33,502 nt of DNA from Acidobacteriota bacterium (GTDB lineage Bacteria > Acidobacteriota > Blastocatellia > UBA7656). Numbering within the stretch: position 1 is the first letter of the stretch; each line of letters begins with the position of its first letter. Location: positions 1-33,502 of the forward strand of contig JACQDB010000120.1 in NCBI GenBank assembly GCA_016201275.1, read 5' to 3'. This document shows positions 16,733 to 31,094 of the stretch, piece after piece. The notes under the pieces are model-generated. The model was not told the DNA's origin, did not search any database, and saw only the letters and a list, made by a program, of their open reading frames with translations. Both the position numbers and the translations under genes were made by a program.

Positions 16733-17386
16733 TTATTGGTGCGCGACGTTGGTGAGTTGAGAAGCGGTGGAAGCGCCGCCGCGAACTTCGATAGCGCCGT
16801 TGGTCTGCACGGTCACTTGCGTTGAAGTGTACAACGCGCCGTCCCCGCTGCCGCCGGAATTTACCGTCAAGCGTATATAACCGCCCGCCGCGCCGCTGGC
16901 TTTGCCACCGCGTCCGCCGCGCCCTGTGGCTTCGCCGGAAAACGGTTTCGCCGATACCAGATAGATATAGTAATTGGAACCGGCTTGCAGCGAATACGCC
17001 GCATTGATCGGATAGCTCTTGCCGCTGATGGTCACGCTACCGTGATTGTAGCCATTCAAGGTATTCAAAAAAGCGCTGGCATCATTTTGCGTCTGCACCA
17101 GTTTATTAATTTCTTCCTGCGTTGAATAACTGCTGATGTTGAGGGAAACATTCGCGCCGGAAGCCGCAGTGGAAGCCGAACCGCCGCCTCTGGTCATTCT
17201 GCCGCGTGCCGCGCCGCCGCCGGATCCGGTAGCACCGCCACTGGCCATGCCTGCCGAATTGCCGAGGCTCGCCGTATAGGTTCCGGTCGCTGCTTGACCG
17301 CCGATGGCGTGGACTGTGGTGGTGAGTAAAATACCGATTGCCAGTAACGCAACGGCGCAATGAATGTGTCTTGATGGTGATTTCAT
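16733..17386 (-). CDS. Exported Gly/Ser-rich protein, function unknown
   Basis: A 217-aa protein starting at the ATG at 17386, which has a strong AAGGAGAAAGGA upstream. The signal peptide is about residues 1-27 (hydrophobic core VALLAIGILLTT, cleavage near VHA). The mature part begins with a Gly/Ser/Ala-rich stretch (GATGSGGGAARGR). It continues with a more regular segment containing NISSYSTQEEINKLVQ and SGKSYPINAAYSLQAG. A second Gly-rich patch (GRGGRGGKASGAAGG) and a Thr/Val-rich tail follow. There are no cysteines in the mature protein. It could be a surface or matrix protein. I do not recognise a family. It is divergent from the first macroglobulin gene across 372 bp. Confidence 0.75.
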   Translation of the reverse strand: MKSPSRHIHCAVALLAIGILLTTTVHAIGGQAATGTYTASLGNSAGMASGGATGSGGGAARGRMTRGGGSASTAASGANVSLNISSYSTQEEINKLVQTQNDASAFLNTLNGYNHGSVTISGKSYPINAAYSLQAGSNYYIYLVSAKPFSGEATGRGGRGGKASGAAGGYIRLTVNSGGSGDGALYTSTQVTVQTNGAIEVRGGASTASQLTNVAHQ

Positions 17387-17758
17387 AACTTGTCCTTTCT
17401 CCTTTTTTATCGCGTGGTCGCGAGCTTGATAGATTGGCTTTGCCAATTTGAGGTGAACTCACAAGCGGGCTGCGGTTGTCAGCGCTTCTTGCCTTCACGC
17501 TCAAGCAGACAATGTTTTCTGGCATGGTGTCGTAAAGAATTGGTAAGAGTTAAACAAAGATTGGGCAGAAAAGAAAGGGCTTTCTTGCCTCCTTTTTTGC
17601 CGAGCCGGTTTTCCGCATCGCTCACCAAACGGCTCGCCGTTTTCGCCCTCTTGAACCACTGCCGAAAAATGAAACGGCAAGACCGCGACGCTTCAAGCGT
17701 TCCCTTGGCGAAGTTCAAAAATCAGCAGCAAAATTCTCGAACCCCTTTGAGGTGATTT
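17387..17758. other. Divergent intergenic region, no gene seen
   Basis: These 372 nt separate the Gly-rich protein gene from the first macroglobulin gene. Small reading frames here lack ribosome-binding sites. A short palindrome, AAGAAAGGGCTTTCTT, lies around 17571-17586. The right end holds GAGGTGATTT, the ribosome-binding site for 17759. I see no clear promoter boxes. Confidence 0.5.
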
Positions 17759-20700
17759 ATGCGCCGTTGCTGGATTCTCTTTACCTTTGGCGTGTGCGCC
17801 GCTTTGCTTATGGTTCAACTGGCTTCGGCAGACTCGGCGTTGCGAATCAATCAAGCGAAGACCCTTGCCACCCTCAATGAATCAAGCGCTACGATTCACA
17901 TCGAACTGGCGATTGATAACTCGACCGCGAACAGCGTTGCCGCGCATATCAAAATGGAATTGCTCGATACCGCCAATGGCTTGCGCGATGTGGCGGAAGG
18001 CGATGCCGTGATCGCGCCGGGGCTGCACCTTGCGCCCTTTGATTTGTCTTTCGGCGAGGTCAAAGAAGATTTGCTGTGGGGGCGGCTGCGTTATGAAATC
18101 ACCGGCGGCGCACAGCGGCTTGTGGGCGTCCTCGCGTTGTCGGCAATCACCCCGGAGATGTTCGAACTTCGCGCCGCCGCGCCGTTTGCGGTAAGCGGCA
18201 GCAAGCCATATCGCGTGCGCGTCATCAGCGTGCATCCGATTACCGCGCAACCCGTAGGCGGCGTGAAACTGACGGGCGAAATTACCATAAGCGAAGGTCA
18301 AAAGGAAAAACTTTTGCAGGCCGTGGGCGTGACCAACCCAGAAGGTTATGCAACCCTGGAATTCACTCTGCCCGAAAATATTGACCGGCAAAACCTCGGC
18401 CTCAAAATTACCGGCGAACATCTGGGACTGGTTCAGGAAGTGGAAAGCGACATCCAAAATAGTTCGCAGAAGCAGTTTCTCATCAACAGCGATAAACTGA
18501 TTTATCAACCCGGACAAACTCTGCACGTTCGTGCGCTGTTGTTCGACGCTGAACGCCGCGCCCTTGCCGACCAGAACGTGACGCTCAAAATTCTGGATGA
18601 AGAAAACATCGTGGTCTATCGCGCCGCGCTCAAGACTTCGCGCTTCGGCATTGCCAGCAGCGATTGGCGCATTCCGGCAAACCTGCGCCTGGGCGAGTAT
18701 GAAATCCGTTTTCGCGCTGATGATGAAGTGGAAGAAACCTGGCAAGCGCGGCACGTCGTCAGAATCAGCCGCTACGATTTGCCTAACTTTACGGTGCAGG
18801 CAAAACCCGACCGCACGTATTATCTGGCCAATCAAAAACCGCAAGTTGAAGTGCGCGGCGATTATCTATTCGGGCAAGCGTTGCACAGTGGGCGCGTCAA
18901 GATAGTGCGCGAAACCGCACGCCATTGGAATTACCGCGACCAGAAATATGACATCGAAGAAGAAGACGAACAGACAGGCACGTTGGACAAAGACGGGCGC
19001 TTCGTCGCTACGCTGGATGTAAGCAAGGTCCGCGAAGACCTCAAACAGAGACCGTACCAGCGTTTTCAAGATGTATCGTTCACCGCTTACCTCACAGACC
19101 TGACGACCAACCGCACCGAGCAACGCCGCTTTGATGTGCGTGTGACCACAGCGCCGATTCACCTCTATTTGATTGAAGGCCGTCCGCAGAGCCGCGATTT
19201 TCCGGCACAATTTTATCTCGCAACTTTCTATGCCGATGGCGCTCCGGCTCCGTGCGAGGTGGCGATCAACGAAGTTATCGAAGGGCAGAGCGAAGAGCGT
19301 TCGCTGGAAAAACCGTTGTTGAAGGTGAAGACCAATCGTTACGGCGTGGCCAAAGTGAACAGGCTTTTTATTGGAGATTTGCGCGAAACTCACGCAAACG
19401 CAACGCTTCACTTTAGCGCCAGAGATCGCAACGGGCGGTCGGGTGAATATAAAGATGACTTACGATTTAAGCCGGGTGCTGCGGTGCGTCTCAACACCGA
19501 CAAACCCTTGTATGGCGCTGGCGAATCCCTGCGTGTTCAGATAGAAGCCAGCAAGGCAATCGCCACGCTCTTTGTCGAAGTTCACGCAATAAAAAACTGG
19601 CAGCCGTTGTTTTCGCAAGTGGCGCAACTCGTCAACGGGTGCGCCACCCTCACCATTCCCTATGCTGAAACATTCAAAGGCGAATTGATCGTTTCGGCGT
19701 ACACCAATTTCGGCAAAGAGGTGAGCGAGTACGAATATCCGGCTGATTCGCGCCGTGTGCTGTATCCGCAAGATGACGAATTGAAAGTCAACGTGACGAT
19801 GAGCCAGACGCTTTATCGCCCCGGCGAAGAAGCCAGCGTCGCTATGCGCGTGCAGGCGCAAGGCGCAGGAGTTGAAAGCGCGCTGGGTCTAACGGTCTTT
19901 GATAAAGCGGTTGACGAACGCGCCCGTACCGACAATGAAAGCCTATCGCGCTACAATTATTTCGTCCGCTATCAGCGCCAATTCACCAATGCTGAGAGCA
20001 TCAGCGGCATCAATCGTCGCGTCTTGAATCAACTCGATTTGTCGAAACCGCTGCCGCCGGATTTGCGCTTGGTCGCTGAAATTCTGCTGGGCAACAATCA
20101 ATACCTCTGGCGAAATCTGATGAACGCAGGCTACGCCACAGAGCATCAACGCACTTATAAACGAATCACGGTGGCGCAATTTCAGCCCGTCCTTGCGGCG
20201 CTCGACCGGCGTTACAAAAAAACCGGGGAGTTTCCGCGTAATGGCACGGAATTGCGCCGCGAACTGCAAGTCTTCAACCTTGACATAGATGCGCTGCGCG
20301 ACCCTTTGGGGCTGCCTTACCGCGATCAGTATTCGATTGATCGAGATGAAAAAACTGTGACCTTCATCAGCGCCGGAGCCGATAAAAAATTCGGCAGCGA
20401 TGACGATTTCGCTGTCGCTTCGATGAGTTGGAAATACTTCAAGCCAGTTGGCGAAATCGTTGACCGTGCGCTCAAAAATTATCACCAACGCACAGGGCTT
20501 TACATCGCCAACAGGAAAACTTTGCAAGCCGAATTGCGGCGCGAGGGTGTCGAGTTACAGCGCTTGCGCGACCCTTGGGGCAAAGCTTATCGCGTTGAAT
20601 TCGGCGTGCTGCAAACCACCTACACCATCGCTTTTGTAAGCAGCGGTGCGCCTCGCCATTTCGGTGAGCGCAGTAAAAGGAAAAGCCGTTCCGACGATTT

Positions 20701-23700
20701 CCGGGTGTGGACTTCTGCGATTGATTACACGACGGAGATCAAGGCGAAGTTGAACGCCGCCTTCAATGAACATTATCGCAAGGCGAAAAGTTTTCCGCAG
20801 AATGATGCGGAATTTGCCAGTGCTATGAAAGCCGAAGGCATAGATGTTGAAACATTACGCGATGGTTGGAACCAGCGTTTATACGCGACCTACAAAACTC
20901 AATCGCGTTATGCCGACCGCGTGACGATTTACAGTTACGCTAAATATCCCGAACCGGCAAAGCAACGCAACGACATCACCCCAGTCACGCAACGCATCAA
21001 TTACCTCACGCTACGCAGTCGCGGCGCGGACAATCGGGAAGGCACGGCGGATGATTTCGACGTGGCGGCTTTTTCGCGCATCGTCGCAGAGCAGGCGGCG
21101 CAAGCGGCGCAGGCCGCCGCGACCGGCAAGTCTGTATTTTTGCCTGAGGGGATGGGCGCAATCGCTGGCGCAATGCTTGACCCGCAAGGCGCGGTGATCG
21201 CTGGCGTAAACATTATGGCTACCAACAAAGCGACAGGGATGGAATATCGCGCCACGAGCGATGACCAAGGGCGCTACACGTTGGACAATCTGCCTGCGGG
21301 ATTTTACGAAATTAAGTTCAAGGCGCAGGGATTTGCAACCACAGTGATTACAGAAGTGCCGGTCGTCGCAGCGAATGTGACGGAAATTGATGCCGAACTG
21401 AGTCCCGGCGGTGTAAGTGAGGCCCTCACCGTCACCGTCACCGCAACAGAGTCTCTTTTACAAACAACGAATGCTTCCGCGACGACTATCGAAACCATGC
21501 ACGTTGAAAGTTTGCCCCTCAACGGCAGGAATTATGTTGAGTTTGTGACCCGAACCGGGGGGGCCGTAGATGGCGGACTTTCGACGCCGCGACTGCGCGA
21601 CTACTTTCCTGAAACGCTGTTGTGGCAGCCTGAAATTATCACCGACGCGCAAGGCCAGGCGCAGTTGAAATTCAAACTCGCCGACAACATCACGACCTGG
21701 AAAGTGGCGGCTATCGCGTCAACCCTTGACGGGCGCATAGCGGTTGCCGAACGCGAAGTGCGCGCTTTTCAACCCTTCTTCATCGAACACGACCCGCCGC
21801 GCATACTCACCGCCGGAGATCAATTGGCTTTGCCTATCGTGCTGCGAAATTATCTCGACAAAGCGCAAACCATCAAACTGGAATTGCAGCCTGCAACTTG
21901 GTTTGAAACTCTCGGCGCAGCGCAACAGCAATGCCAACTTGCCGCAGGTGAAGCGCGCCGCGAAACCTTTAACATACGCGCTACCGCTTTCGTCAAAGAC
22001 GGCAAACAACAAGTCAAAGCCATAGGCAGTGAGGCGAGCGACGCCGTAGAAAAAACCGTCAGCGTGCATCCCGATGGTCAGGAGATTTTGCAGACCGCGA
22101 GTCAAATATTCGGCGACGCAGGAAACCTCGAAATCCATATTCCCGCCGCCGCCATCAACGATTCGACAACCGCCGAGTTGAAGATTTATCCGAACTTGAT
22201 GGCGCACGTTTTGGAAAGTGTCGAAGCCATTATGCAGCGCCCTTACGGGTGCGGTGAGCAAACGATTTCGGCGGCCTATCCAAGTTTACTGGCCTTGCGT
22301 CATTGCCAACAACAAGGCGACGAAACTTCGCCCTTAGCCGTGAAAGCGCGGCGATATGTGCAGTCGGGTTATGAACGCTTGCTCAGTTACCGCAATGAAA
22401 ACGGCGGCTTTTCGTATTGGGGGCGCGATGCGGCGGACTTTGCTTTGACCACTTACGCGCTGCAATTTTTGGTGCAGGCAAGCGAATTTATTGCCGTTGA
22501 TGAAGCGGTGCTTGATGCAGCGCAGGCTTGGCTGCTCAAGCATCAACAGGCCGATGGACATTGGGCGGCGCTCGATTGGCGACAAGTTGAAGACCCTCGG
22601 CGCTCGCTTATGTTGACCGCTTATGTGGCTCGCGTGCTTGCTGCGCTTCTCAACCAAAAGGCCAAACCGAGCGCCAGCGCACCACGCCAAGCGAAGGCCA
22701 ACACCAGGCAAAAAGATGCGGAAAGCGAGAAGCCCGTGCCGTCGTTGCGTGCTTCGACGCAGCGCGCTTTGGCTTATCTGGCGCAGCGCGTGAATGAATT
22801 TGACGAGCCCTATTTGCTCGCTTCGTATGCACTGGCGGCTTTTGATGCCAGAGAAATTGCCGAAGCCGAAAGCGCTGTCGAACGCTTGCCGAGACTGGCT
22901 CACGCGGAAGAAGGCGCGAATTACTGGGCGCTGGAAACCAACACGCCGTTTTATGGCTGGGGCTTGGCGGGACGCATTGAGACCACGGCGCTGGCGGTTC
23001 GCGCTCTGGCAACCTGGCAAAGAATAAAAGATGACGCGGCGACGCGGCGCAATGATGACGCGGCGCATCAACCACGCCAAGAGACCACCGATCAACCACG
23101 CCAAGAGACTACCGATCAACGAAGCAACGACGCCAAGCTACAGCGCGACGCGGCGGAATTGATCAATCGCGGCCTGCTCTTTTTGCTCAAACAGAAAGAC
23201 CGCTACGGCGTCTGGTATTCCACCCAGGCGACCGTCAACGCGCTTGATGCGCTGCTTGCCATCTTGTCGCAACGCGAAGCAAAAACCGCGAGTAGCGCCA
23301 ATCAAACTGGTGCGACGCAAGCGGCGGAAATCTTTGTCAACGGCAGGCAGGTGGAAACCGTCGTTATGCCGAATATCAACCAGTTGACAAATCCGATTTT
23401 GCTGGATGTCGGGAAATATTTATCAACGGGGAGCAACCTCGTCGAGATTCGTCGTCCGGCAAACGCGGTGCAGGCATCGGCGCAACTGGTGGAAACGCAC
23501 TACGAAAATTGGGCGACAAGCATTACGAAAACACCGTCGCAGGCGTTGCGCTTTGCCGTTCATTTTGACAAAACGCAGGCGCAGACCCGCGAGGAAATCG
23601 TCTGCCAGGTTGCCGCTGAGCGTGTGGGTTTTCGCGGTTACGGCATGATGATTGCCGAAATTGGTTTGCCGCCGGGCGCAGAGGTTGACCGCGCTTCTTT

Positions 23701-23923
23701 GGAACTAGCGATGACGAAATCGAATGGAGAGATCAATCAGTACGATGTGTTGCCGGATCGAGTGATCGTCTATTTGTGGCCGCGTGCCGGAGGGTCGCAA
23801 TTTGCCTTCAAGTTCCGCCCACGTTTCGCCATTGCCGCGCAAACCGCCGTATCGGTGTTGTACGATTATTACAATGCGGAAGCGCGCCAAGTCGTTGCGC
23901 CGGTACGGTTCAAGGTTGAATAA
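17759..23923 (+). CDS. Secreted alpha-2-macroglobulin with pseudopilin-like and Oar-like insertions
   Basis: A 2054-aa protease-trapping protein. The signal peptide is residues 1-24 (no lipobox, ends LASADS). Macroglobulin beta-domains follow: an MG2-like SDKLIYQPGQTLHVRA near 244 and a bait-adjacent SQTLYRPGEEASVAMRV near 681. Residues about 799-1108 are three repeats resembling the C-terminal part of the GspG pseudopilin (LRDPLGLPYR, GADKKFGSDDDFAV). Residues 1132-1216 are a carboxypeptidase-regulatory-like domain, then a TonB-receptor-plug-like segment ending LPLNGRN at 1252-1258. The core MG domain follows (LLWQPEIITDAQG). The thioester is intact: PYGCGEQ, Cys1498 and Gln1501. A helical thioester domain with two low-complexity inserts and a receptor-binding-like domain finish it. 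PbpC, the common partner, is absent here. Confidence 0.92.
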   Translation: MRRCWILFTFGVCAALLMVQLASADSALRINQAKTLATLNESSATIHIELAIDNSTANSVAAHIKMELLDTANGLRDVAEGDAVIAPGLHLAPFDLSFGEVKEDLLWGRLRYEITGGAQRLVGVLALSAITPEMFELRAAAPFAVSGSKPYRVRVISVHPITAQPVGGVKLTGEITISEGQKEKLLQAVGVTNPEGYATLEFTLPENIDRQNLGLKITGEHLGLVQEVESDIQNSSQKQFLINSDKLIYQPGQTLHVRALLFDAERRALADQNVTLKILDEENIVVYRAALKTSRFGIASSDWRIPANLRLGEYEIRFRADDEVEETWQARHVVRISRYDLPNFTVQAKPDRTYYLANQKPQVEVRGDYLFGQALHSGRVKIVRETARHWNYRDQKYDIEEEDEQTGTLDKDGRFVATLDVSKVREDLKQRPYQRFQDVSFTAYLTDLTTNRTEQRRFDVRVTTAPIHLYLIEGRPQSRDFPAQFYLATFYADGAPAPCEVAINEVIEGQSEERSLEKPLLKVKTNRYGVAKVNRLFIGDLRETHANATLHFSARDRNGRSGEYKDDLRFKPGAAVRLNTDKPLYGAGESLRVQIEASKAIATLFVEVHAIKNWQPLFSQVAQLVNGCATLTIPYAETFKGELIVSAYTNFGKEVSEYEYPADSRRVLYPQDDELKVNVTMSQTLYRPGEEASVAMRVQAQGAGVESALGLTVFDKAVDERARTDNESLSRYNYFVRYQRQFTNAESISGINRRVLNQLDLSKPLPPDLRLVAEILLGNNQYLWRNLMNAGYATEHQRTYKRITVAQFQPVLAALDRRYKKTGEFPRNGTELRRELQVFNLDIDALRDPLGLPYRDQYSIDRDEKTVTFISAGADKKFGSDDDFAVASMSWKYFKPVGEIVDRALKNYHQRTGLYIANRKTLQAELRREGVELQRLRDPWGKAYRVEFGVLQTTYTIAFVSSGAPRHFGERSKRKSRSDDFRVWTSAIDYTTEIKAKLNAAFNEHYRKAKSFPQNDAEFASAMKAEGIDVETLRDGWNQRLYATYKTQSRYADRVTIYSYAKYPEPAKQRNDITPVTQRINYLTLRSRGADNREGTADDFDVAAFSRIVAEQAAQAAQAAATGKSVFLPEGMGAIAGAMLDPQGAVIAGVNIMATNKATGMEYRATSDDQGRYTLDNLPAGFYEIKFKAQGFATTVITEVPVVAANVTEIDAELSPGGVSEALTVTVTATESLLQTTNASATTIETMHVESLPLNGRNYVEFVTRTGGAVDGGLSTPRLRDYFPETLLWQPEIITDAQGQAQLKFKLADNITTWKVAAIASTLDGRIAVAEREVRAFQPFFIEHDPPRILTAGDQLALPIVLRNYLDKAQTIKLELQPATWFETLGAAQQQCQLAAGEARRETFNIRATAFVKDGKQQVKAIGSEASDAVEKTVSVHPDGQEILQTASQIFGDAGNLEIHIPAAAINDSTTAELKIYPNLMAHVLESVEAIMQRPYGCGEQTISAAYPSLLALRHCQQQGDETSPLAVKARRYVQSGYERLLSYRNENGGFSYWGRDAADFALTTYALQFLVQASEFIAVDEAVLDAAQAWLLKHQQADGHWAALDWRQVEDPRRSLMLTAYVARVLAALLNQKAKPSASAPRQAKANTRQKDAESEKPVPSLRASTQRALAYLAQRVNEFDEPYLLASYALAAFDAREIAEAESAVERLPRLAHAEEGANYWALETNTPFYGWGLAGRIETTALAVRALATWQRIKDDAATRRNDDAAHQPRQETTDQPRQETTDQRSNDAKLQRDAAELINRGLLFLLKQKDRYGVWYSTQATVNALDALLAILSQREAKTASSANQTGATQAAEIFVNGRQVETVVMPNINQLTNPILLDVGKYLSTGSNLVEIRRPANAVQASAQLVETHYENWATSITKTPSQALRFAVHFDKTQAQTREEIVCQVAAERVGFRGYGMMIAEIGLPPGAEVDRASLELAMTKSNGEINQYDVLPDRVIVYLWPRAGGSQFAFKFRPRFAIAAQTAVSVLYDYYNAEARQVVAPVRFKVE
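23067..23114 (+). repeat. 24-nt in-frame tandem repeat in the first macroglobulin gene
   Basis: Two 24-nt units (23067-23090 and 23091-23114) differ at one base and encode PRQETTDQ-type repeats. They lie in a polar insert within the thioester domain, next to other DDAA-rich repeats. Confidence 0.9.
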
Positions 23924-23929
23924 AGCGCT

Positions 23930-23963
23930 AGGCTTTGCGCTGTTGAAGATTAGCGCAAAGCCT
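23930..23963. terminator. Stem-loop between convergent macroglobulin and rpn genes
   Basis: A perfect 12-bp stem (AGGCTTTGCGCT at 23930-23941 with 23952-23963) encloses a 10-nt loop. The right arm includes the last codons and part of the stop codon of the minus-strand rpn gene. It may terminate both convergent transcripts, although T-runs are short. Confidence 0.55.
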
Positions 23964-24294
23964 CTTTGAGGGTTTTGGCGTCGAGGATTTGCAGGCTCCA
24001 TTTTTCCAGTTTGGTGGTGTTTGCCGTAGCAATTTTTTTGACTGCCCAGTCAGGCAATTCACCGAAGCGTCGCTCAAGGAGGCGACGCAAAAAGGCCGCT
24101 TCACCTTTCTTTTCGCCGCGCGCTTCACCGCGCTTTTCACCGCGCGCTTCACCGCGCTTTTCACCGCGCGCTTCACCGCGCTTTTCACCGCGCGCTTCAC
24201 CGCGCTTTTCACCGCGCGCTTCGCCTTTCTTTTCGCCTTCTAAAAAGGCTTCTTTGACGAACGGAATTCTCATGACATCTACAGTAATCGGCAT
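23950..24294 (-). CDS. Predicted intragenic Rpn-short protein (candidate antitoxin)
   Basis: An in-frame ATG at 24294, codon 192 of the nuclease gene, is preceded by a perfect AGGAGG (24303-24308) with an 8-nt spacer. Translation from here gives a 114-aa protein beginning MPITVDVMRIPFVKEAF. It carries only the GEARGEKR repeats and the DUF4351-like C-terminus, with no nuclease core. The signal is far stronger than that of the full-length start. In E. coli, Rpn genes contain just such internal starts, and the short product binds and neutralises the long one. That this happens here is an inference from layout. Confidence 0.7.
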   Translation of the reverse strand: MPITVDVMRIPFVKEAFLEGEKKGEARGEKRGEARGEKRGEARGEKRGEARGEKRGEARGEKKGEAAFLRRLLERRFGELPDWAVKKIATANTTKLEKWSLQILDAKTLKEALR

Positions 24295-24867
24295 CTTTTG
24301 TACCTCCTGACGGATTTTGATTTCCAATTTTCTCAACCCCGATAGTATCAGAAGTTTGGTCAAGGCGTCTTCACGGTTTTTGCCGCTGAGACGAGCGATT
24401 CGCCGCAGTATCTCTTGAATGGTCGCGGTCGCGTTCTCCATACGACAGAGCAGCGCCAGCAGATTATCTTCGAGTGAATCGCTGTCCAATAAAACGCCAC
24501 TGTCTATGGTGCGTATGTCTTTCACCTCGTAAGTGAACAGCAAATTTTTATGCTGAATGCCTGCCGACATTCGTAGCGGTTTGTCGCCAACATAGAGAAC
24601 CGTCTGCACCGGTTGCAGCCCCGTCAGTTTGAAAATCGGCGCATAATATTCCAGCATACGCCAATTCATGTCGTCATCGTTTTCGCTCTGCAATTCGAGA
24701 TGATGGATGCGCCCGTCCGACAGCCGCGCAATCAAATCAGGCTTTCGCATACGCACCGCAGGGTATTCGACGGTCAGCAACTCAACCGGTTGCGCCCCCA
24801 CCAATAGTTCCAACAAACGACGCGGCGGCGATTGAAACAACTCTTTCAAAGTCGTATCGTATTTCAT
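23950..24867 (-). CDS. rpn: Rpn-family PD-(D/E)XK nuclease with DUF4351-like tail
   Basis: A 305-aa protein of the recombination-promoting nuclease/putative transposase (Rpn) family. The N-terminal nuclease core starts MKYDTTLKELF. The PD-(D/E)XK residues are Asp44 (RKPDLIARL) and Glu58-x-Gln60 (HHLELQSE), with Arg70 and Tyr74 in WRMLEYY also typical. A helical linker leads to MPITVDVMRIPF at 192. Six GEK(K/R)GEA(R/A) octapeptides follow at about 211-258, then a DUF4351-like end (FLRRLLERRFGELP...LEKWSLQILDAKTLKE). The ribosome-binding site at the long-form start (24867) is poor. Rpn proteins cut DNA, and some are abortive anti-phage toxins held in check by a short protein from the same gene. 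It lies antisense between two macroglobulin genes. Confidence 0.88.
   Translation of the reverse strand: MKYDTTLKELFQSPPRRLLELLVGAQPVELLTVEYPAVRMRKPDLIARLSDGRIHHLELQSENDDDMNWRMLEYYAPIFKLTGLQPVQTVLYVGDKPLRMSAGIQHKNLLFTYEVKDIRTIDSGVLLDSDSLEDNLLALLCRMENATATIQEILRRIARLSGKNREDALTKLLILSGLRKLEIKIRQEVQKMPITVDVMRIPFVKEAFLEGEKKGEARGEKRGEARGEKRGEARGEKRGEARGEKRGEARGEKKGEAAFLRRLLERRFGELPDWAVKKIATANTTKLEKWSLQILDAKTLKEALR
24094..24237 (-). repeat. Six 24-nt tandem repeats inside rpn
   Basis: Six consecutive 24-nt units encode the octapeptide GEK(K/R)GEA(R/A). The central units are identical at the protein level and nearly so in DNA. The segment is strictly alternating acidic/basic, expected to form a charged single alpha-helix. 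Confidence 0.97.
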
Positions 24868-25005: not shown

Positions 25006-25128
25006 TTGCAACAAGGCCAGCAGCGCGACGTTCTAGGAATTGCTAAACCAAAGTTCAGGAGAGAAATCTTATGCAGCGATTCATCGCCTTTTGTGTGTTT
25101 GCCTTGTTGTGTGTCGGCTCATTCATAG
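25006..25128 (+). CDS. Possible 40-aa leader ORF overlapping the second macroglobulin start
   Basis: A TTG codon at 25006 follows a near-perfect AAGGAGG (24993-24999) with a 6-nt spacer. It opens a 40-codon frame rich in Gln, Arg and, at its end, Cys. The frame ends at 25128, 58 nt inside the macroglobulin gene in another frame. It may be a translated leader that couples to the downstream start, or the strong ribosome-binding site may be a chance match. No homology is recognised. Confidence 0.3.
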   Translation: MQQGQQRDVLGIAKPKFRREILCSDSSPFVCLPCCVSAHS

Positions 25129-28100
25129 CGGTTCACGCCCAGCAAACCGATTATGACAAACTCAAAACCGCCGCCGAAAAATTTTATCAAGACGCTTCGT
25201 TCAGCAAAGCTCACGACCTCTATGTACAAGCCCAAGCGCTCACGCTTGCTGCGCCAGAGACTCGTTGGGTCGCCTTTCGTCTGGCCGACACCGCTTGGCG
25301 CGCACAAGCCGCTACGCAAACCTCCGACTCCACGAAATACGACGAAGCGCGCCAGCAACTCGAAGCCCTGGTGCGTGACGTGCAACGCATAGAAGATAGA
25401 GATGTGGTTTGGGCCGAGGCGCAAGAATCTTTAGGTGATTTTTGGTGGCTGCGCCGCGATGCGAAAAACTGGTATCAGGGTTGGCAATTTTATCAACAGG
25501 CTTTGGACTTTTGGGCTGGTTCGGCAGACCTCGAAACGGCGCGCACACACTATTTGAAAATAGTCTGGAAGCTGGCCAAACCCGATTGGGCGGAACCGTA
25601 TTATTACTACGGTTATTATGGCAACTACGTACCGCTTGAGGTTTTGCAAAACGCTTTGAAGATTGGGCGCAGCGATGATGAAAAAGCCCACGCTCATTAT
25701 TTGATCGCCATGACGTTGCGCGCACAGGGCGGCGATTGGCAACAACGCCAGCGCGTGCCGGAAGAATTTGAAGCCGCAATCGCCATCGGCAAAGCCAACG
25801 CTTGGTACGACGACGCGATTTATTATTATGCCGAATGGATGATGAATTACGGGCGCATCACCCAGGACGATAATAACCAATGGCATCAGCAACCGGATTT
25901 CATCAAGGCTTTGGCATTATTTCGCCGCATCACCGGCGAATTTCAAAAAGGCGAAACCCGTTATTACGATCAGGCCGCGCAGCAAATCGCCAGTATTATC
26001 AAGCCTGCGATCAACCTCGGCGTTGCCAATATCTTTTTGCCGAATTCCGAAATTCAGTTTTATTTGAACTGGCGCAATACCAGGCGCGTTGACCTGGCGC
26101 TTTACAAAGTAGAGTTGACCCGCGATGTGCGTTTCGTCAAAGACGATAGCGCGGGCAGTTGGCTGCAACGCCTCAATACCGGCGACCCAATCAAGACGTG
26201 GGCGAAAGAGACCAACGACAAAGGCGATTATCAACCCGGCGCGGAGATGCTTCGCGTGGAGGAAAAATTAGCCACCGGCGCGTATCTCATCGAAGCAAAA
26301 ATCAACGGCGCAGTTGCACGCGATTTGATTTTAGTCAGTGACGCAACGCTGGTCTTGAAGACTTCGGGCAAACAGGCGCTGGCCTATTTCTGCAACGTCA
26401 ATGACGGCTCGCCCATCGCCAATGCCAATGTGAAATTATACGAGCGCAGCTACAACGGCAGCGCTTACGTTTGGAAAGAGCTTGCCAAACCGACCAACGC
26501 GGACGGCATCGCCGTGTTCGATTTGTCGCAGCGAAACCACGGCTACAACGCGGAAATTTTTGCTGTGGCAAGGAGCGATCAACGACAGGCTTTCGTCAGC
26601 AACTACGTTTACGGTTATCAAAACGATCAGGAAAACTGGCGCGTCTATGCCTTCACGGATCGCCCTGCTTATCGCCCGAACGAAACCGCGCAATTCAAAT
26701 TCATCGCCAGAAAATATAAGGACTCGCAATATACAACGCCTGCCAATCAAGTCGTCGAATACGAAATCGCCGACCCGCAAGGCGCGAAAGTCGGCGAAGG
26801 CAAATCTCGACTCAATCAATTCGGCAGCGCTTGGGGCAATCTGGAATTGACCGACAAAATGCCTCTGGGCGAATACCACATCACCTTTTGGACCGACAAA
26901 GAACACCACGATGAAATCGGGCAGGCAACGCTGTTTCGACTCGAAGAATACAAATTGCCGGAGTTCAAAGTCGAAGTGAAAACGCCGGAAGTTGACGGCA
27001 AGAAAAAGGCTTTCAAGCTGGGCGAAAAAGTCGAAGTCAATATTCAGGCCGATTATTATTTCGGCGGCGCAGTCGCCAATGCCAACGTCGAAGTCATCGT
27101 TTATCAAAATCAATTTTATCAATACTGGAACCCGCGCCGAGATTACGCCTGGTATTACGAAGACCTGGATTCGCGCTATCAAAACTATGGCTATCGCGGT
27201 TCGCAAATCAAACGCGAGACCTTGAAGACCGATGCCACGGGCAAAGCTGTTTTGACTTTTGACACACCGCAAGGCGCTGGGCAGGATTTCCAGTACACCA
27301 TAGAAGCGCGGGTCACCGATGCGTCGCGCCGCGAAATCACTTCGACCAATAATGTGCGCGTGACGCGCCAGCGCTACTATGTTTATCCGCGAGCCGAGCA
27401 TTATCTATATCGTCCGCAGAGCAAAGTCACCGTTAACATCAAGGCGCTGGATGCCAACGATCAGCCGGTGCAAGCCGAAGGGCGCATGAAGTTGACGCGG
27501 GATCATTGGTATGAAATCTGGCTCGACGCCAATGGCCGCGAAGTCAAAGGCGAAGAGTTGAAACGCCTGCGCGCCAATGGGCAAGCCTTCCCGCCGCGTG
27601 CTGCCGATGGGCAGAGAGCTTGGCAGTTGAAATTTCAAGGCTACGAACACGAAGACATCACTTCGCAAATGGTCAAGACCAACAAAGAAGGCGAAGCGGA
27701 ATTTTCATTCACGCCCGAACGCGAAGGCTATTATCGCGCTGCTTGGACGAGTGATGAAAAAGGCGCGTCGCCGATCACTGCCGAAACCGCTGTTTGGGTA
27801 GCGACCACGGCGACCAGTGATTTGGGTTATCGCAACGGCGGCCTTGAAATGATCGTTGACAAAGATACGTTTCGCGCCGGACAAACTGCGCCGGTGATGC
27901 TGGTTGCGCCAACCAATGATCGCTATGTTTTGTTCAGCGTCGAAACCGACGAGTTATTGAGTTATCAATTGATTCGTATGAGCGGCAATGTGAAGTTGAT
28001 TGAATTGCCGTTTGATGAAAAGCACGTCCCGAATATTTTTTTGAACGCAACGATGGTCAACGACCGGCAATTTTTCATGGACAACAAACAGATCATCGTG

Positions 28101-31094
28101 CCGCCGGTGAAAAACTTTCTCAACCTCGAAGTCAAAGCCGACCGCGAAGAGTATCAACCGCGTGATGAAGGAATGTTGACGGTGACGGCAAAAGACAGTG
28201 AGGGCAAACCTGTGTCGGCAGAGGTTGCGGTTGGTTTGGTTGATGAATCGGTTTTCTATATTCAACAGGATTACGCTGGCGATGTGCGGCAATTTTATTA
28301 CGGCACCAAGCGCAATCATCAAGTGCAGACGCAAAGCACTATGAATCAAAAGAGCTATCAACGACTTGTCGAAGGCAAAGACAAGCAATTGATAGATGAT
28401 CGTCTGGTTGGACAGAAGCAAGATCAAAATTTTGAAAAGTTGCAACTGTTAGCCGATTTGCAAAAAGCTCCTGCCGCAACTGCCAGAGGCGAATTCGGAG
28501 CGGCACAGGAAAGTGTTACGAGTACGGGAGCCAGATCAAATATGAGTTTTGATGGCGGGATCAGTAAAGATAAGAAGGAGATGGATCAGTTGGCAAGGCG
28601 CGATGAGGCTTTGCCAATCAATGGTCGCGAGTTCAAACAACTGGCAGAACTGAAACCGGGTCTTGCAGGCAAAAGTAAAGAGCCAGCCGTTGTGGTGCGA
28701 AATGATTTTCGTTCAACCGTCATCTGGCAACCGAATGTCATCACTGATGCGACCGGCAAAGCAAGCGTGAAAATCAAGTTTCCTGATTCGCTGACGACTT
28801 GGAAAGCGACGGCTCGCGCTGCAACGGCAGGCAATCAATTCGGTATCGCTGATGCGAGTGCGCGCACCAAACAACCGTTGATTGTACGTCTGCAAGCGCC
28901 GCGCTTTTTCGTCGTCGGCGATATGGTCACCATCTCTGCGGTTATCAACAACAATACCGATAAAGCCATGACGGTACAGCCTGCGCTCAATGCCGAAGGC
29001 GTTATCGTCACCGGTTTGATTAAAGATGGCAAGCCGGTGAAGGGCGAGCTTGCAAGCGTCAAGGTTGCTGCCAACGGTGAAGCGCGGGTTGATTGGCTTG
29101 CCGCTGTCAAAGACGCCGGCAAGGTGAAATTGAAAGTCACGGGGCGCGGTGACAAGTACGCCGACGCTATGGAAAAATCATTTGTCGCTTATGAACACGG
29201 CATCGAAAAATACATAGCGAAATCGGGCAAAATACGCAGCGATGATGTGACCATCAAACTCAATATTCCCAAAGAGCGCAAAGCCGATTCGACAACCTTG
29301 AGTGTGCAGGTCGCGCCCAGCATGGCCGTCACCATGATTGATGCGCTGCCGTATTTAATCAACTATCCGTATGGTTGCACCGAACAAACTATGAGTCGTT
29401 TCCTGCCTGCCGCGATTACCCGAAAGACGCTGAAAGATTTGGGACTCAAACCCGAAACCGTCATGGGCAAACTCTTCGGCGGCATCGAATCGCAGTTCGC
29501 CGCCAAGACTCACACGCAGGAACGCAAAGACCTCAAAGAACTCGACGACATGATTCAGAAGGGCTTGGAGCGACTCTACGATTTTCAACATACGGATGGC
29601 GGCTGGGGCTGGTGGAAAGATGGCGAAAGCGATCACTTCATGACGGCTTATGTCATCTGGGGACTTGCGCTGGCGCGTGAGGCGGGAATCGTCGTCAAAG
29701 ACGACGCGCTCCATAACGCCGCCGCGTTTTTAAGCAAAGAGCTTGTCGAAGAAGAGAACAATTATGATGAACAGGCGTGGATGCTTCATGCTTTGGCCAG
29801 CTATCACGCGACGATGAAGCGCAGCGAAGTTGAAAAGTTTGAGGCGAAGGCGTTTGATAATTTATGGACAAATCGAGAACGCTTGAACGCTTACACCAGA
29901 GCCTTGCTGGCCTTGAGCGCACACCATTTCGGCTACACCGACAAAGCGAAAACGCTGGTGGAAAATCTTGAGAACGGCGTGAAGCTTGACCGCACGCCTG
30001 ACACTTCTATCATTCAACGCGGCGCAGCGAGCGCCAACGATACGGTCATCGCCACGGCGCATTGGGGCGAAGATGGCATTTACTGGCGCTGGTCGGATGG
30101 CGGCGTTGAAGCTACGGCGTTTGCCTTGCGGGCGATTTTAGCCATTGATCCGCAGAATAAATTGATCGAGCCGGTGACCAACTGGTTGGTCAAAAATCGG
30201 CGCGGCGCGCAGTGGAGCAACACCCGCGACACCGCCATCACGGTGTTGACCTTGAACGATTATTTGCAACAAAGCGGCGAATTGAAACCGGAGCTTGAAT
30301 ATGAATTGAGCGTCAACGGGCAATTGATTGCGGCGAAAAAATTGACCGCTGAAGATGCTTTGAGCGCGCCGAGCGTTTTCAACATTGACCGCAAATTCAT
30401 ACGCGATGGCGCAAACGATATACGCATCGTTCGCAAGCGCGGCAATACGCCGATTTACTTTGCCGCCAACGCGCAGTTCTTCAGTCTGGAAGAACCGGTG
30501 AGCGAAGCGGGCAATGAAATTTTTGTGCGCCGCGATTATTACAAACTGGTCGCCAAACCAACATTGTTGAAAGGCTACGTTTATGAACGCTTGCCGCTGC
30601 GCGACGGCGAAACAGTAGAGAGCGGCGAGCGCGTTGAGGTGCTGCTCTCGATTGAGGCGAAGAACAATTATTCGTACCTGCTGTTTGAAGATTTGAAACC
30701 CGCAGGGCTGGAAGCCGCAGAGCTTCGCAGCGGCGAAAACCTCTACGCCAGGGAGTTGAAATCGGGCGCAGTCAGTCGCAAATTTGGCGCGGCAAATGCG
30801 CGTGCGGCGAAAGATGCGATGAACACGAAACCGGCTACAGGAGCCAATCCTGCGTCAACGGACGAAACAAATTACACAGGTCGTCAAGCGTGGATTTATC
30901 AAGAACTGCGCGATAGAAAAGTGGCGCTCTTCATCAGCCATCTGCCGGAAGGTATATGGGAAGTGCGCTACGAAATGCGCGCCGAAACTCCCGGCGCATT
31001 TCATGCGTTGCCGGTTTTGGGACACGCCATGTACGTGCCGGAGATTCGCTGTAACAGTAACGAAGCGCGCATCAAAGTTGAAGACAAACCCTGA
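25071..31094 (+). CDS. Second secreted alpha-2-macroglobulin with helical N-terminal extension
   Basis: A 2007-aa protein. The signal peptide is residues 1-23 (ends FIAVHAQQ, no lipobox). Residues about 25-330 are a helical, TPR-like extension (AEKFYQDASFSKAHDLYVQAQ). Macroglobulin domains follow, with DRPAYRPNETAQFKF near 531 and LYRPQSKVTVNIKA around 785. Residues about 1085-1210 form a long polar, probably flexible segment in the bait position. It holds LPINGRE from 1181 just before STVIWQPNVITDATG. The thioester is PYGCTEQ (Cys1436, Gln1439), followed by a helical thioester domain (GGWGWWKDGESDHF) and a C-terminal domain resembling the receptor-binding module. AGGAGAG lies upstream of the ATG. 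It would trap proteases entering the periplasm or surroundings by covalent thioester capture. Confidence 0.92.
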   Translation: MQRFIAFCVFALLCVGSFIAVHAQQTDYDKLKTAAEKFYQDASFSKAHDLYVQAQALTLAAPETRWVAFRLADTAWRAQAATQTSDSTKYDEARQQLEALVRDVQRIEDRDVVWAEAQESLGDFWWLRRDAKNWYQGWQFYQQALDFWAGSADLETARTHYLKIVWKLAKPDWAEPYYYYGYYGNYVPLEVLQNALKIGRSDDEKAHAHYLIAMTLRAQGGDWQQRQRVPEEFEAAIAIGKANAWYDDAIYYYAEWMMNYGRITQDDNNQWHQQPDFIKALALFRRITGEFQKGETRYYDQAAQQIASIIKPAINLGVANIFLPNSEIQFYLNWRNTRRVDLALYKVELTRDVRFVKDDSAGSWLQRLNTGDPIKTWAKETNDKGDYQPGAEMLRVEEKLATGAYLIEAKINGAVARDLILVSDATLVLKTSGKQALAYFCNVNDGSPIANANVKLYERSYNGSAYVWKELAKPTNADGIAVFDLSQRNHGYNAEIFAVARSDQRQAFVSNYVYGYQNDQENWRVYAFTDRPAYRPNETAQFKFIARKYKDSQYTTPANQVVEYEIADPQGAKVGEGKSRLNQFGSAWGNLELTDKMPLGEYHITFWTDKEHHDEIGQATLFRLEEYKLPEFKVEVKTPEVDGKKKAFKLGEKVEVNIQADYYFGGAVANANVEVIVYQNQFYQYWNPRRDYAWYYEDLDSRYQNYGYRGSQIKRETLKTDATGKAVLTFDTPQGAGQDFQYTIEARVTDASRREITSTNNVRVTRQRYYVYPRAEHYLYRPQSKVTVNIKALDANDQPVQAEGRMKLTRDHWYEIWLDANGREVKGEELKRLRANGQAFPPRAADGQRAWQLKFQGYEHEDITSQMVKTNKEGEAEFSFTPEREGYYRAAWTSDEKGASPITAETAVWVATTATSDLGYRNGGLEMIVDKDTFRAGQTAPVMLVAPTNDRYVLFSVETDELLSYQLIRMSGNVKLIELPFDEKHVPNIFLNATMVNDRQFFMDNKQIIVPPVKNFLNLEVKADREEYQPRDEGMLTVTAKDSEGKPVSAEVAVGLVDESVFYIQQDYAGDVRQFYYGTKRNHQVQTQSTMNQKSYQRLVEGKDKQLIDDRLVGQKQDQNFEKLQLLADLQKAPAATARGEFGAAQESVTSTGARSNMSFDGGISKDKKEMDQLARRDEALPINGREFKQLAELKPGLAGKSKEPAVVVRNDFRSTVIWQPNVITDATGKASVKIKFPDSLTTWKATARAATAGNQFGIADASARTKQPLIVRLQAPRFFVVGDMVTISAVINNNTDKAMTVQPALNAEGVIVTGLIKDGKPVKGELASVKVAANGEARVDWLAAVKDAGKVKLKVTGRGDKYADAMEKSFVAYEHGIEKYIAKSGKIRSDDVTIKLNIPKERKADSTTLSVQVAPSMAVTMIDALPYLINYPYGCTEQTMSRFLPAAITRKTLKDLGLKPETVMGKLFGGIESQFAAKTHTQERKDLKELDDMIQKGLERLYDFQHTDGGWGWWKDGESDHFMTAYVIWGLALAREAGIVVKDDALHNAAAFLSKELVEEENNYDEQAWMLHALASYHATMKRSEVEKFEAKAFDNLWTNRERLNAYTRALLALSAHHFGYTDKAKTLVENLENGVKLDRTPDTSIIQRGAASANDTVIATAHWGEDGIYWRWSDGGVEATAFALRAILAIDPQNKLIEPVTNWLVKNRRGAQWSNTRDTAITVLTLNDYLQQSGELKPELEYELSVNGQLIAAKKLTAEDALSAPSVFNIDRKFIRDGANDIRIVRKRGNTPIYFAANAQFFSLEEPVSEAGNEIFVRRDYYKLVAKPTLLKGYVYERLPLRDGETVESGERVEVLLSIEAKNNYSYLLFEDLKPAGLEAAELRSGENLYARELKSGAVSRKFGAANARAAKDAMNTKPATGANPASTDETNYTGRQAWIYQELRDRKVALFISHLPEGIWEVRYEMRAETPGAFHALPVLGHAMYVPEIRCNSNEARIKVEDKP

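Follow-up and report, generated by a model that had tools for sequence, protein, structure and literature searches.

Bacterial alpha-2-macroglobulins (A2Ms) trap proteases, and the locus described here raises the question of why the bait of such a trap would look like the beginning of an outer-membrane receptor. The window, by which we mean the whole stretch of DNA analysed (33,502 nucleotides), is an entire 33.5-kb contig from the 6.84-Mb genome of an Acidobacteriota bacterium, and it carries two A2M genes in tandem on the forward strand, gene 1 and gene 2 (Table 1). By sequence comparison, the bait of each of these A2Ms holds a segment that resembles the N-terminal beginning of TonB-dependent receptors of the Oar type. 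In gene 1 this receptor start came together with the regulatory domain; in gene 2 it comprises only the part that ends with the plug start. Passages of PMC4498604 describe bacterial A2M as periplasmic, with a largely disordered bait, and as trapping the protease after bait cleavage, with the thioester binding the protease. For Oar, passages of PMC6434023 report an interaction with the periplasmic protease PopC, for whose export the plug and the TonB box are important.

Results

The receptor-like segment of gene 1 covers residues 1132-1271 (residue 1132 of the open reading frame (ORF) lies at window position 21152), directly before the A2M domain, and comprises a carboxypeptidase regulatory-like domain (CarboxypepD_reg), a TonB-box-like strand and the start of a receptor plug. 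A sequence-only reading of the window had placed such a domain, followed by LPLNGRN, from residue 1132 onward, and both coordinates and reading hold when checked against the ORF and Pfam. In a comparison of the 141-residue segment with its own genome, 40 matches were obtained including the segment itself, the others at 25-41% identity. The seven best of these others are receptor-size frames (35-41% identity) whose alignments end at query residue 131-138, beyond LPLNGRN, while some weaker matches span the regulatory domain alone; one match each falls in an A2M paralog on contig C26 and in a VIT-VWA-receptor fusion. All five of the matching frames tested in Pfam, all of them partial, combine CarboxypepD_reg with an outer-membrane barrel, which together with the receptor alignments bears out the Oar-type order proposed for the module in the sequence-only reading. 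In P0001, the product of gene 1, CarboxypepD_reg is internal, unlike its N-terminal position in Oar-type receptors.

The plug start was scored with a matrix made from 19 of the 27 own-genome receptor frames inspected and with larger matrices made from 64 receptors and from 39 and 63 windows of these, the frames being picked by the anchor motif in each case. With the 19-receptor matrix, the gene 1 plug start reaches 29.5 bits, a score attained by none of 500 shuffles; the receptors themselves score 15.5 to 57.5 bits in leave-one-out, and among 100,652 non-bait positions in 73 A2Ms the highest score is -0.08 bits. With the 64-receptor matrix, the values are 24.9 bits for gene 1 and 1.8 for the best non-bait position. 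A similarity confined to other macroglobulins or to the generic regulatory-like fold was considered and rejected, given that the receptor matches extend past the plug start and given the matrix scores. The bait of gene 2 exceeds the non-bait positions with both matrices (Table 1), and its alignment to receptors spans positions -45 to +25 relative to LP (E 1.6e-06; BLAST without composition correction). The G+C content at third codon positions (GC3) of this bait (window 28488-28707) is 0.452, compared with 0.592 for the gene.

The resemblance ends at the plug start. Pfam gave no Plug match in P0001, although the Plug model itself matched just one of five own receptors; P0001 holds no complete plug because its sequence runs from the plug start, which ends at residue 1271, straight to the A2M domain at residue 1286. 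Likewise, Pfam found no outer-membrane beta-barrel family in the window A2Ms, as opposed to five of five receptors tested. In a single-sequence AlphaFold model of the graft, the regulatory domain alone is confident (predicted local distance difference test (pLDDT) 64-89 in blocks that cover most of the domain; mean pLDDT of the model 44.9). A Foldseek search with this model returned other beta-sandwich proteins as best matches, and the transthyretin-like domain 5aq0 ranked 16th (TMt 0.80).

At the DNA level, the gene 1 graft is 43-51% identical to nine own receptor genes, and the capture is therefore old. GC3 is 0.574 in the graft and 0.607 in the whole gene; on these two grounds we rejected recent copying from a receptor gene. 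The sequence-only reading is thus supported in part: the Oar-type order, the bait position and the receptor similarity stand, but the segment cannot be taken as a recent graft into one protein, given this low identity and the presence of the regulatory domain in 21 of the 22 rows of its A2M clade. We also judge an assembly artefact to be unlikely because the same layout is present in other genomes.

Approximately 570 residues separate the end of the Pfam bait-region domain of gene 1 (residue 718) from the start of its A2M domain. The best PDB sequence matches are 7voo and 6tav, which we take to be human A2M structures, and they start right behind the bait: the 6tav alignment begins at residue 1276 of gene 1, immediately behind the graft, and at residue 1207 of gene 2, corresponding to chain positions 728 and 729, respectively. 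The human A2M bait presumably comprises residues 690-728. Together with the Pfam A2M domain, this alignment corroborates the bait position that had been proposed from sequence alone.

To assess specificity, we searched 14 genomes with a strict nucleotide pattern that encodes LP-x-NGR-x-[FY] and restricts the codons allowed at x. The pattern gave 68 matches, compared with 2 for a reversed control; by context, 64 are receptor N-termini (3 of them also tested in Pfam) and 4 are A2M baits, with no other protein type among the 68. A related form missed by the strict pattern, LPLNGRSF, separates a VIT-VWA part from a full receptor in the own genome. This is a separate fusion, a 1822-residue frame on contig C144 (L035:1091-6556, reverse strand) that joins VIT and VWA to an Oar-type receptor with regulatory domain and barrel; in another genome (G003, locus L203) a VIT part, recognised by eye, is fused to a receptor without the VWA part.

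The spread among A2Ms was surveyed in 39 genomes, the own genome included, by inspecting all 73 contexts of PF00207, which occurs in 30 of the genomes; two further A2Ms of the own genome lie on contig C26. By domain model and tree, the regulatory domain is present in 21 of the 73 baits, all within the one 22-row clade; it requires two changes on the A2M tree, a number consistent with a single capture plus one loss, and on this sequence evidence the domain is an old feature of gene 1's A2M clade. The tree is a quick one with SH-aLRT support only; it has some long branches, and three rows fill <15% of the columns. In 9 of the 73 A2Ms, the plug start scores higher than every non-bait position, in windows that start 35-51 residues before the A2M domain, and these nine belong to the regulatory-domain clade (L032, L088, L104), the gene 2 clade (L031, L043, L097, L099a) and a third clade (L101, L051). 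It requires eight changes on the tree, a figure that depends on the score threshold. Five of the nine score within the receptor range (minimum 15.5 bits), and L101 lies just under it at 15.4.

A search of the phylum with plug-start-bearing A2Ms as queries found matches with E<=1e-28 in 45 of 247 genomes; of the loci listed, 30 were inspected, and the addition of 16 A2Ms gave a set of 88 baits. Because the added A2Ms are the best matches to graft-bearing queries, counts over the 88 are not those of an unbiased sample. With the matrices based on the 64 receptors, the plug start passes in 8 of the 88 baits, the TonB box in 13 and a further plug strand in 1. Among the 60 baits without a regulatory domain, the plug start passes in 4 and the TonB box in 3, with approximately 0.07 expected for each; as related rows are not independent, probabilities calculated from these counts are overstated. 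One A2M from outside the class (L189) has the same layout as gene 1. In a motif-independent BLAST of the 60 baits against the N-terminal parts of the 64 receptors, again with no composition correction, 9 baits had matches at E<=0.05, compared with 2.7 per shuffled set. The five best matches (E 1.6e-06 to 1e-03) are centred on the stretch from TonB box to plug start; of the four weaker ones, L097 falls in the same stretch, L070 further upstream, and L067 and L065 in the barrel region. We do not claim the second plug strand (...DG...) because it beats the non-bait positions in one bait only (L099a). An NxxxDG stretch does precede the plug start in gene-2-type baits (window 28536; L097; L099:3115-9120, reverse strand) and resembles this later receptor strand with the order swapped, rising above all non-bait positions in L099a only.

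The TonB-box-like strand is less distinct. The highest-scoring window in gene 1 lies two residues out of register, and of 108,768 non-bait positions 2 score higher; in gene 2 the box is hardly recognisable (-2.3 bits). Three of the 13 baits in which it beats all non-bait positions have no regulatory domain (L071, L192, L194); a stretch such as VSEAITVTAGAPAV can be seen in these baits. The pattern E/D-x-hydrophobic-x-hydrophobic occurs in the best window of 17 of 28 regulatory-domain A2Ms, in 30 of 39 receptors and, elsewhere, at 336 of 60,078 positions, a comparison that favours the A2Ms in that their windows were chosen by score. In a tree of the regulatory-domain segment, 19 of the 28 A2M rows fall in one fork of 26 together with 7 receptors (SH-aLRT 94), and this fork sits inside the receptor diversity, poorly resolved. 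Placing the 28 A2M rows among 87 receptor rows requires eight changes in a tree that has few columns and is also compatible with a single origin.

Gene 1 further contains, before the graft, three repeats resembling the type II pseudopilin family T2SSG, which, like the plug start of the second A2M, go beyond the sequence-only reading. They were delimited with a repeat hidden Markov model (HMM) built in part from gene 1's own repeats, and the Pfam T2SSG model gave no match in gene 1 itself. That model does match the C26 paralog (24.5 bits together with its neighbours; E 3.3e-06) and L189 (E 2.2e-06). Among the 43 rows that extend 700 or more residues upstream of the A2M domain (for gene 1, the full sequence was used), two or three repeats are present in 11, all of the regulatory-domain type, and 6 other regulatory-domain rows lack them. 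The baits at L036 and L189 also contain two or three such repeats before the regulatory domain, and in L193, which has no regulatory-domain match and lies outside the 43-row test, a pseudopilin-like stretch is visible by eye.

Both window genes apparently encode intact bacterial A2Ms with thioester motifs: P0001 and P0002, the product of gene 2, have MG2, bait-region, A2M and TED domains in A2M order in Pfam. By eye, both have signal-peptide-like starts, and no lipid-anchor motif was seen in either. Between the two genes lies a DUF4351 gene with repeated GEKRGEAR units (23950-24867, reverse strand); in G003 (L099), a genome of the same family, the equivalent A2M pair lies approximately 350 bases apart, measured between stop-to-stop frames, without a DUF4351 gene. 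A glycine-rich frame adjoining the A2M genes (16733-17446, reverse strand) has no Pfam match.

Table 1 Positions of the A2M genes, their domains and the receptor-like and pseudopilin-like segments in the window.
Feature	Window position	Strand	Evidence
A2M gene 1 (P0001, 2054 aa)	17759..23923	+	ORF; Pfam MG2, MG3, A2M_BRD, A2M, TED, A2M_recep
A2M_BRD bait-region domain, gene 1, residues 577-718	19487..19912	+	Pfam E 2.4e-07
Three type II pseudopilin (T2SSG)-like repeats, gene 1, residues 801-1092, before the graft	20159..21034	+	repeat HMM
Carboxypeptidase regulatory-like domain (CarboxypepD_reg), gene 1, residues 1135-1214	21161..21400	+	PF13620 E 1e-18
TonB-box-like strand SEALTVTVTA, gene 1, residues 1220-1229	21416..21445	+	alignment with receptors; best window 12.2 bits
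Receptor plug start TMHVESLPLNGRNYVEFVTRTGGAVD (LPLNGRNY), gene 1, residues 1246-1271	21494..21571	+	29.5 bits; 24.9 bits (64-receptor matrix)
A2M domain (PF00207), gene 1, residues 1286-1376	21614..21886	+	Pfam E 4.6e-22
Thioester motif CGEQ, gene 1, residues 1498-1501	22250..22261	+	sequence; within TED_complement 1479-1832
A2M gene 2 (P0002, 2007 aa)	25071..31094	+	Pfam MG2, A2M_BRD, A2M, TED, bMG10
Receptor-like bait segment, gene 2, residues 1140-1205, no regulatory domain	28488..28685	+	BLAST to receptors
Plug start ARRDEALPINGREFKQLAELKPGLAG, gene 2 (28611)	28593..28670	+	27.3 bits vs best non-bait -0.08; 31.0 vs 1.8 (64-receptor matrix)
Thioester motif CTEQ, gene 2, residues 1436-1439	29376..29387	+	sequence

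Discussion

We suggest a model in which the bait mimics the exposed periplasmic start of a TonB-dependent receptor, so that proteases attacking or docking on receptor starts would spring the trap, and we put the probability of this reading at roughly 0.4. The trap would work like known A2Ms, by bait cleavage, conformational change and thioester capture: a protease able to attack or dock on the receptor-like segment would cut the bait and be captured. The broader proposition is more tentative still, namely that Acidobacteriota evolve A2M baits mimicking the periplasmic receptor start in at least three clades and at a similar place, through an old capture with the regulatory domain and a separate gain of the plug start, with proteases that attack or use receptors being worth trapping.

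Several points weigh against this model. Mimicry is not required, because a bait needs only be cuttable, and according to passages of PMC6434023 the Oar regulatory domain is dispensable for PopC export. Of the 73 surveyed baits, 46 lack both the regulatory domain and a plug start that passes. The plug starts of L097, L051 and L099a (3.9, 3.1 and 0.1 bits) lie far below those of every receptor, and with the 64-receptor matrix all three fall under the single top non-bait score. Even among the 28 regulatory-domain baits, only four have a passing plug start, a figure compatible with either decay or fast evolution of the bait. Finally, the exact form is rare, because a composite pattern across GTDB 220 was found in one genome, a count that may omit records close to the window.

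Part of this evidence is what would be expected if domain shuffling were simply tolerated, with a receptor N-terminus captured once, the regulatory domain serving as an extra Ig-like spacer and the plug start left as a decaying remnant without function. The restriction of the regulatory domain to a single A2M clade, with its two changes, the absence of a passing plug start from 24 of the 28 regulatory-domain baits and the tolerance of baits for inserts such as the pseudopilin-like repeats all speak for such a history. We nevertheless find it doubtful, and less probable than mimicry, as A2Ms of other clades that lack the regulatory domain also have the plug start, about equally far from the A2M domain, and as the strict motif picked out no other protein type in the 14 genomes. 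The TonB-box-like strand raises a further alternative, in which it would bind the C-terminal domain of TonB and thereby bring the A2M to the Ton machinery or into the vicinity of receptors. The windows that top all non-bait positions in 13 baits, including the three without a regulatory domain, are in line with such docking, as are the Oar TonB-box changes at E118 and I122 that lower PopC secretion in passages of PMC6434023, a spacing kept in 17 of 28 regulatory-domain A2Ms. The motif is short, however, and choosing the A2M windows by score favours them; in gene 1 the box is weak and shifted, in gene 2 it is barely discernible, and passing plug starts exist without it, all of which makes docking improbable as the explanation.

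By analogy to the export of PopC by Oar in Myxococcus, the receptors might also export proteases, and the A2M might pose as the exporter and catch those that become active prematurely in the periplasm. We regard this as very unlikely: no protease family was found among the 19 other window frames run in Pfam (of 67 listed), and the A2M contains only the plug start rather than the whole plug. Mimicry of the receptor start thus remains the reading that we prefer.

The A2M type itself is already known, and the new element, within the open-licence literature searched, is a receptor-like bait with pseudopilin-like repeats. Word searches of that literature found neither such a bait nor anything on Acidobacteria with Oar. 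Database architectures probably include Bacteroidota A2Ms with regulatory-like and plug domains, which would lower the novelty if right; we know of no receptor to which the eukaryotic A2M bait is related. With the bacterial A2Ms YfhM (ECAM) of E. coli and SaA2M of Salmonella, the window proteins share MG, bait-region and A2M domains and a TED with CxEQ, and the YfhM and 4u48 chains match them by sequence. They differ in the bait: in passages of PMC4498604, 20 bait residues of cleaved YfhM lack density, whereas the long bait of gene 1 accommodates the repeats and the Oar-type start. Moreover, YfhM is anchored to the inner membrane, in contrast to the window A2Ms with no lipid-anchor motif discernible. 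With Oar-type transporters, gene 1 shares the order of regulatory domain and plug start, with a weak TonB-box-like strand between them, and the window A2Ms differ from them in having neither a complete plug nor a beta barrel.

On present sequence comparisons, this soil bacterium and its kin may bait their protease traps with look-alikes of their own receptors. If the baits do copy an own receptor, then the bait sequence names the substrate that is guarded and makes the target proteases findable. If true, this would mean that a decoy has evolved within a bacterial protease trap, and it would offer a way to ask whether the starts of TonB receptors are a weak point for envelope proteases.
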